From Hallerella porci (GTDB taxonomy: Bacteria > Fibrobacterota > Fibrobacteria > Fibrobacterales > Fibrobacteraceae), in NCBI RefSeq assembly GCF_003148885.1, contig NZ_QGHD01000012.1:1-62675 (forward strand): a DNA stretch of 62,675 bases, given 5' to 3'. The notes beneath the pieces are model-generated. The model made no database searches. It was given only the letters and a program-made list of their open reading frames with translations, and was not told the DNA's origin. A program made the position numbers and the translations under genes. Below are positions 2,686-4,976 of the stretch, one piece after another (the first letter of the stretch is position 1; each line of letters starts with the position of its first letter).

Positions 2686-3471
2686 TTAATCTCTCAAAAA
2701 TCCGGTAAGCGGATCGCTTGCACTCGCACCGCGCACAAGTACGCGGCCAAGGCCTGCTAAGTAAGCTTCTCGGCCCGATTCAATTGCCTTTTTGAAAGCC
2801 GTCGCCATCCGCGTCAAATCGCCCGCGGTCGCAAGCGCTGTATTCGCCATGACCGCAGCCGCACCCATTTCCATCGCGGCGCAAGCTTCGGACGGTTTAC
2901 CGATACCCGCGTCCACGATAATCGGGAGCTCAATTTCGTCGATGAGAATTTGGATAAAATCCTTCGTCGAAAGTCCGCGATTCGAACCGATTGGCGACGC
3001 AAGCGGCATCACCGCAGCCGCTCCGGCGTTCACCAAATCGCGGGCGATGTTCAAATCCGGATACATATACGGCATCACGACAAATCCTTCTTTCGCTAAG
3101 ATCTCGGTCGCTTTTACCGTTTCGTAATTATCGGGAAGCAGATACTTTGTATCGCGCATAATTTCAATTTTCACAAAGTCGCCGCAGCCAAGTTCACGGG
3201 CGAGGCGCGCAATGCGAACGGCTTCGTCGGCGTTGCGAGCGCCCGAAGTATTCGGAAGGAGCGTCGCACTTTTCGGAATGTAATCGAGAATATTTTCGTG
3301 TTCCTTGGTATTTGCGCGGCGAACGGCGCAAGTGATGATTTCAGCGCCAGCGTACTGCACCGCAGCTTCAATGAGCTTGAGCGAATACTTGCCCGAGCCC
3401 AAAATAAAGCGGGAATGAAGTTCGTGTCCGCCGATAAAAAGCGGGTCGTTTTTCAAGTTTTCATTTTCCAT
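2686..3471 (-). CDS. thiG: Thiazole synthase
   Basis: Condenses 1-deoxyxylulose 5-phosphate, dehydroglycine and sulfur from ThiS thiocarboxylate into thiazole phosphate. The 261-residue TIM-barrel shows the family blocks [29 protein letters not shown] and DFVKIEI, where Lys101 is the expected Schiff-base lysine, followed by the phosphate-binding [11 protein letters not shown] and [10 protein letters not shown]. Sits between thiF and thiH in the operon. The 94-base gap to thiF contains a dispersed repeat of the TCAGGATGACA class. Activity depends on a working ThiS, which is questionable here. Confidence 0.97.
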
Positions 3472-3495
3472 TTTTAATGTCCTTTTTTATTAAAT

Positions 3496-3618
3496 GCTAG
3501 ATCCTACCCCAAAGGGCTTAATTCAACTAAGGAACTAAAGTTCCAAGTTTCATATATCGCTACGCTCAGGATGACACGTTGAGCTGTCTAGACGACTCCT
3601 TGAGCTGTCTGGATGACA
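3496..3618. repeat. TGCTAGATCC...TCAGGATGACA dispersed repeat running into thiF
   Basis: A TGCTAGATCC-type start (about 3497) is followed by CTACGCTCAGGATGACA (to 3576) and then by an exact 21-base-period duplication, TTGAGCTGTCT at 3579 and again at 3600, closing with a second GGATGACA (3611-3618). The same TGCTAGATCC ... TCAGGATGACA arrangement is present at 4883-4926. The 21-base units are inside the thiF reading frame and code for a duplicated heptad. Confidence 0.6.
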
Positions 3619-4312
3619 TCATAGGGCCACTCGACAGCGTTTCTGTTTCAAATCCACAAATGATTCGGATGGTGGTGATCGCCTGATGCGCTGCGCAAAG
3701 CATGACTCGCGGGGCAATGAGTCCAATGCCTGCATTTACATCGCTTTTTCCGTCTCCGCATAAAAAAAATTTTTTTGAAATGCGTCGCGTCGTAATTTCA
3801 TTTGCTTCGCCAAAGCCCGCCATTCCAGAAGCTGCCACCAAAAACTGTTGCTTGTCCAAATTTCCTTGACTGGCAAGTTCTGCGTTGCGCTCGAGGATTG
3901 CGTTCACAAGCATTGCTTTGGCTTCGGGATTATCAAAAGCTTCGCAGACAACATTTGCCTGCCCGATGAGCGTTTCCACATTTTCGGGAATCATCCGTTC
4001 CGTATGCGATTCAATTTCTAAGTAAGGCGCAATTTCTTTTAAGTTTTCGGCAAGGGCAATCGACTTTTCCTCGCCGACTTGAGAAACTTTATATTGTTGG
4101 CGGTGCAAATTCGTCACATCGACCGTATCGAAATCGATGAGAATCAATTTGCCCACTCCCGCTCGTGCAAGAGAAATCGCAATGTTCGAACCAAGCCCGC
4201 CGAGCCCGCAAACGGCGACCGTCGCCGCTTGAAGTTTCGCCACGTTTTCTTTCCCTTGCCGCTCGACAAGAGCTGCAAGCATCTGTTCTCGCGAGATTTT
4301 ACAAGAAGACAT
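3566..4312 (-). CDS. thiF: ThiS adenylyltransferase (ThiF family)
   Basis: Activates the C-terminal glycine of ThiS by adenylation for sulfur loading. The Rossmann signature GLGGLGSNIA starts at Gly36, followed by LIDFDTVDVTNLHRQQY, which is typical of the E1-like/MoeB/ThiF superfamily. The 248-residue protein belongs to the short ThiF type (CGDGKSDVNAGIGLIAPRV block) without the zinc-binding cysteine pairs of E. coli ThiF. The ATG overlaps the thiS stop as TAATG, so translation is probably coupled. The last roughly 16 residues (SSRQLKE then SSRQLNV) come from the flanking dispersed repeat and look like a recent C-terminal extension. Confidence 0.93.
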   Translation of the reverse strand: MSSCKISREQMLAALVERQGKENVAKLQAATVAVCGLGGLGSNIAISLARAGVGKLILIDFDTVDVTNLHRQQYKVSQVGEEKSIALAENLKEIAPYLEIESHTERMIPENVETLIGQANVVCEAFDNPEAKAMLVNAILERNAELASQGNLDKQQFLVAASGMAGFGEANEITTRRISKKFFLCGDGKSDVNAGIGLIAPRVMLCAAHQAITTIRIICGFETETLSSGPMMSSRQLKESSRQLNVSS

Positions 4313-4521
4313 TAGCCGCCTCCCATAAAGCTCACAATTTCAAGATTATCCCCATCCGAAAGAAGCGTTTCCGCGTATTTTTATTTTGGTACGATTTCGT
4401 AATTGCGTTCGACAGCAATCCGTTTGCAATCGTAATCCGTAGTCTTCAGATATTCTGCGACGGACTTGCCTGCAAAAGACTTTCCGTCGGCTTCAATATC
4501 AACACCATTTACCTTTATCAC
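4312..4521 (-). pseudogene. thiS: Sulfur carrier protein ThiS, interrupted by in-frame TAA
   Basis: ThiS carries sulfur as a C-terminal thiocarboxylate to thiazole synthase. The GTG start at 4521 has GGAGG four bases upstream and opens VIKVNGVDIEADGKS. After IVPK a TAA occurs at 4381-4383. The same frame then continues as KYAETLLSDGDNLEIV and ends SFMGGG, the canonical ThiS tail with the essential Gly-Gly, stopping at 4312-4314 as TAATG with thiF. In E. coli ThiS the corresponding place reads IVPREQWA, so the stop sits where Glu is expected and a single GAA-to-TAA change explains it. As written only a 46-residue truncated protein would be made, without the thiocarboxylate tail. A base-call error, a true nonsense mutation and stop readthrough are all possible. 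Confidence 0.85.
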
Positions 4522-4603
4522 GTTACCTCCGTTGGCATTATCCAAATCAGGTTCGGTCGAAGTTTTCAACTTCCTCTCAGCCGGTTACACCAGCTCCCGT
4601 GTG
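4522..4603 (-). promoter_or_regulatory. TPP riboswitch (THI element)
   Basis: Read on the minus strand, the leader contains the conserved TPP aptamer pieces in order: ACGGGAGCTGG, GGCTGAGAGG, a small perfect hairpin GAAGTT-GAA-AACTTC, GAACCTGA, and GGATAATGCCAACGGAGG. The final GGAGG is also the thiS Shine-Dalgarno site, four bases before the GTG start, so control of translation initiation is the simplest reading; I see no terminator hairpin with a T-run between aptamer and gene. It marks the start of the thiSFGHE operon and shows that the operon is under thiamine pyrophosphate feedback. Confidence 0.95.
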
Positions 4604-4777
4604 AAATAAATTTAGAAAATTAGAAATGAGGGGTGAGTGCGCACGGCTTCGCCTTCGGCGAGTTAGGAATGTTAAGGCGACTTCGCTGCGGCAAGGCTTT
4701 TAACATGTCAAATTCGTTCTTGCAACGCTGCGGGAAGGCTTTTTAAATGAGAAATGTAGATGATGGCGCGCCGGGGT

Positions 4778-4882: not shown

Positions 4883-4976
4883 TGCTAGATCCGTTCACTT
4901 CACCTTCGGCTCCGTTCAGGATGACACGGCGGTTGTGCCTACGGCTTCACTCAGAATGACTTAGAGTTTGTCATCC
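4883..4976. repeat. TCAGGATGACA-type inverted repeat element
   Basis: Begins with TGCTAGATCC, continues through CTTCGGCTCCGTTCAGGATGACA (GGATGACA at 4919-4926) and CTTCACTCAGAATGAC, and ends in the inverse TGTCATCC (4969-4976), giving an imperfect inverted-repeat unit. It shares its opening and core with the element at 3496-3576. Confidence 0.6.

Follow-up and report, generated by a model that had tools for sequence, protein, structure and literature searches.

A premature stop codon in thiS of Hallerella porci suggests the replacement of thiazole synthesis by thiazole salvage

In Hallerella porci, thiS is probably a young unitary pseudogene created by a nonsense mutation. The thiazole branch of thiamine synthesis (thiSFGH) is likewise probably being lost, as the cell can salvage thiazole. 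Within the window, i.e. the whole stretch of 62,675 nucleotides that was analysed, thiS is located on the minus strand (4312-4521). It extends from a GTG at 4521, where relatives have ATG, to an ancestral stop TAA at 4314-4312 that overlaps the ATG of thiF as TAATG. An in-frame TAA at 4381-4383 interrupts the frame (window 4315-4521) after 46 of its 69 codons; the minus strand reads ...GTA CCA AAA TAA AAA TAC GCG... at this site, with the stop at 4383-4381. Standard translation ends with ...IVPK and thus loses the last 23 residues together with the Gly-Gly end, the GGG lying 3' of the TAA. Translated past the stop, the frame is VIKVNG...IVPK*KYAETLLSDGDNLEIVSFMGGG, includes YAETLLSDGDNLEIVSFMGGG after residue 47 and comprises 22 more ThiS codons up to a terminal Gly-Gly-Gly. 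When it was read through with an X at the stop, the NCBIfam ThiS equivalog TIGR01683 matched with 66.6 bits against a cut-off of 37.45, and PF02597 scored 51.2 bits (cut-off 22.5). Sequence and profile scores therefore agree with the first-pass annotation, which had described a stop ahead of the C-terminal half, a normal ThiS tail behind it and the TAATG junction with thiF.

A whole-genome Pfam search for ThiS matched this single place only and flagged it with '1 TAA' inside. The comparison with related genomes revealed no internal stop in any of 80 other ThiS-family matches from 60 genomes, which rules out a chance ThiS match, and none of the aligned relatives carries a stop at the codon 4381-4383. 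Thus, the gene is the sole copy in the genome and its disabling mutation is absent from the orthologues, as expected of a unitary pseudogene. ThiS is adenylated and thiolated at its Gly-Gly tail. This tail is conserved in solved ThiS structures, for example 1tyg and 2k5p, and falls within the lost C-terminal part. Without its C-terminal strands and the Gly-Gly on which ThiF acts, a truncated ThiS would deliver no sulfur to ThiG, and no thiazole phosphate would be formed de novo. ThiM would phosphorylate hydroxyethylthiazole from the surroundings, and ThiE or ThiN would join the thiazole phosphate to the pyrimidine provided by ThiC and ThiD. Since this salvage route bypasses ThiS, the loss of thiS would be nearly neutral wherever thiazole is supplied.

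ThiM, the hydroxyethylthiazole kinase, makes thiazole synthesis dispensable given available thiazole, and an intact gene for it is present on another contig of this genome, termed G000 here (G000:C7:105003-105737). Its product passed PF02110 and scored 294.2 bits with TIGR00694 (cut-off 256.4) and 336.7 bits with NF006830 (cut-off 180). ThiC, ThiD, a second ThiE and a riboswitch-led AIRS-ThiN fusion were also identified elsewhere in the genome by Pfam searches. Loss of thiazole synthesis had been one of several options offered by the first-pass annotation, and the salvage enzyme found outside the window supplies the reason for it. The fusion, in which an AIR-synthase/ThiL-like part is joined to ThiN (525-527 aa), is followed by the second ThiE and stands under a TPP riboswitch (L168:6821-8404, L170:7105-8682); within the genus, this locus occurs only in the present genome and in G005. 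No TPP riboswitch was detected upstream of thiC in this genome (L169:4245-5834, G000:C1), whereas all five congeners have a weak TPP match near this gene.

Full-length ThiM is encoded in eight of 61 related genomes. The seven other carriers are all devoid of a full-length ThiG, and the present genome alone among the 61 possesses both proteins, with its thiS broken. The exclusion of ThiM and ThiG was significant with this genome left out (Fisher test, p = 2e-6) and when limited to genomes at least 90% complete (p = 3e-6), the remaining ThiM carriers representing five genus-level lineages, so that the counts are not all phylogenetically independent. A ThiS-family match is absent from six of the seven other carriers. 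The seventh is G056, a distant relative without full ThiG, whose ThiS-like gene (L227:3095-3307) adjoins a MoeB/ThiF-type gene, therefore suggesting a use other than thiamine. A weak ThiM match in G020 was not counted, its protein being NAD(P)HX-dehydratase-like as judged by eye from the sequence. The absence of ThiG is not tied to ThiM alone: five ThiM-less genomes, three of them just 71-78% complete, have no full ThiG either. The near-perfect exclusion across the phylum provides a testable rule to predict thiazole cross-feeding among gut Fibrobacterota.

Within the genus, ThiM is restricted to this genome and G005, and the four other congeners harbour an intact thiS and no ThiM. Both genomes were placed as sisters in an RpoB tree with modest support (84/86), making G005 the probable sister species. 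Both possess ThiM as well as the riboswitch-led ThiN fusion with the second ThiE. In G005, however, the loss is complete, with thiS and thiG gone and ThiM under a TPP riboswitch, whereas thiF, thiG and thiH remain here; a later deletion of the interrupted operon, as in G005, would be the expected outcome. The two ThiM proteins are only 49% identical. The G005 protein clusters with its counterparts in G008 and G022, and the closest relative of the protein described here is that of the distant phylum member G056 (66.5%). ThiM therefore probably came in twice, with separate origins in the two genomes.

The thi operon is headed by a TPP riboswitch on the minus strand (4506-4609; RF00059, 56.1 bits against a gathering threshold of 54.3), the 3' end of which gives the GGAGG ahead of the thiS start. 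On the same strand, thiF (3566-4312; TIGR02354, 269.6 bits), thiG (2686-3471; PF05690, 332 bits), thiH (1276-2646; TIGR02351, 499.9 bits) and the thiE of the operon (620-1264; TIGR00693, 220.8 bits) are open frames, each above its Pfam cut-off, and thiG and thiH are conserved. All of these elements had been considered intact at first pass, which holds true for the riboswitch, thiG, thiH and thiE, but not for thiF. Its tail past about residue 222 is unlike that of relatives, and while thiF and thiG overlap or nearly do so in four same-genus genomes, a spacer with REP-like sequence is found here instead. This segment, comprising the thiF 3' end and the spacer (3471-3640, minus strand), carries the REP-like sequence GTCATCCTGAGCGTAGCG ... 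AGGATCTAGC and contains AGACAGCTCAA repeated twice. Related GTCATCC...GGATC sequences are also present at about 4890-4970 of the window; a longer form of the pattern recurs at four further sites of the genome and is absent from five congeners. ThiH owes its length of 456 aa to a stretch rich in Ala and Ser within the BATS region; homologues from the same genus measure 444-446 aa, so that the stretch is common to them but variable.

Among sites invariant in eight relatives, five of 46 were changed in thiS in comparison to 12 of 675 in thiG, thiH and thiE together (p = 0.003), a post hoc comparison which left out the thiS start codon and in which the thiS excess amounts to five residues. On account of these five changes, the constraint on thiS may have been relaxed either prior to the stop or after it arose. 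A recent loss of the thiazole branch has good support, but the "very recent" of the initial proposal holds only in part. Given the excess of change in thiS, its GTG start and the altered 3' end of thiF, where spacer has taken the place of the tail and of the overlap with thiG, the operon is, as far as its sequence tells, beginning to erode at the 5' end. Its genes thiG, thiH and thiE still appear to be under constraint.

The TAA probably replaces an alanine or else a serine codon. Among 98 aligned ThiS sequences, which exclude the one studied here and count a few loci twice, the position is occupied by Ala in 62, by Ser in 27 and by Glu in a single case, and all eight close relatives, including those of the same genus, have Ala (GCN). 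The first-pass annotation had derived the stop from a glutamate codon by one G-to-T change; this is at odds with the relatives, and the residue taken from E. coli led the one-base argument astray. While TCA (three of the aligned sequences) or GAA (one) would be converted to TAA by one change, GCA requires two. The stop is spanned by a perfect tandem hexamer, AAAATA-AAAATA (4376-4387, minus strand), and an ancestral AAAAGC-AAAATA would differ from it in just the two bases concerned. A single event of templated slippage, i.e. copying between near-repeats, could thus have made both changes.

The same codons bear on the possibility that the TAA is a base or assembly error and that the true codon is sense, leaving thiS intact. 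One assembly of the species underlies the call, the site lies in an A+T-rich stretch (AAAATAAAAATA), the frame past the stop is unbroken, and thiG, thiH and thiE are conserved, all of which would fit such an error. However, a single miscall would need TCA or GAA as the true codon, two bases separate TAA from the alanine codons of the close relatives, and it would be left to coincidence that the stop occurs in the very genome that alone combines ThiM with ThiG. We therefore regard an error, which had also been considered at first pass, as possible but unlikely, and a single G-to-T miscall of Glu as a poor fit to the relatives.

Enough full-length ThiS might also be made if the TAA were read through, whether by leakiness or in a programmed manner. 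Little ThiS may suffice since the carrier is recycled, and the preserved open frame with its Gly-Gly tail, together with the retention of thiF, thiG, thiH and the riboswitch, would be in line with this. In contrast, none of the 44 tRNAs detected has a UUA, CUA or UCA anticodon (for UAA, UAG and UGA), TAA terminates 22 of 32 long open frames in the window, with TAAA as the commonest context (9/32), no relative has the stop, and thiS shows excess change. Readthrough, a further option of the first-pass annotation, thus gained no positive support and appears quite improbable. A related and slightly less probable scenario is low-level passage across the stop, by readthrough or by a bypass between the AAA codons on either side of it; the recycled carrier ThiS would then be made in barely sufficient amounts, and the stop would throttle thiazole synthesis in a mainly salvaging species. 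Least probable of all is the substitution of ThiS by another ThiS/MoaD-like carrier, as had also been suggested: exchange among GG-tailed carriers is conceivable and several relatives have two or three ThiS-family genes, but no second PF02597 match was obtained up to E = 10 in this genome (2.85 Mb, 99.99% complete).

Taken as a young pseudogene, thiS represents an ordinary case of gene loss seen at a halfway stage. Events of this kind are already known, and the intermediate is a good example. The vitamin pathway seemingly stands between making and salvaging, as ThiM has arrived, the operon is still present and, within it, thiS as the smallest gene is the only one disrupted. In annotation, profile searches that translate across stops would count this genome among the thiazole makers, probably wrongly.

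The literature on the vitamin needs of Fibrobacter held nothing decisive. For gut bacteria, a hydroxyethylthiazole-auxotroph variant termed 'Az' has been described, which combines ThiC, ThiD, ThiE and ThiM, also with ThiL/ThiN, in the absence of thiazole synthesis (PMC6593275, Table 1). Genes for ThiC, ThiD, ThiE, ThiM and the ThiN domain are all present here, and ThiS-dependent thiazole synthesis is predicted to be off. In contrast to that variant, the thiazole synthesis genes are not absent: thiF, thiG and thiH are kept and open, only thiS is broken, and the pathway is interrupted by one codon only. The genome thus lies outside the Az definition so far, yet, going by its gene content, it probably behaves like a hydroxyethylthiazole auxotroph. 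Vitamin genes of host-associated bacteria that have become unitary nonsense pseudogenes share with thiS the single premature stop, the sole copy and the intact neighbours; what distinguishes the present case from such pseudogenes in general is that a specific bypass enzyme, ThiM, has been identified.
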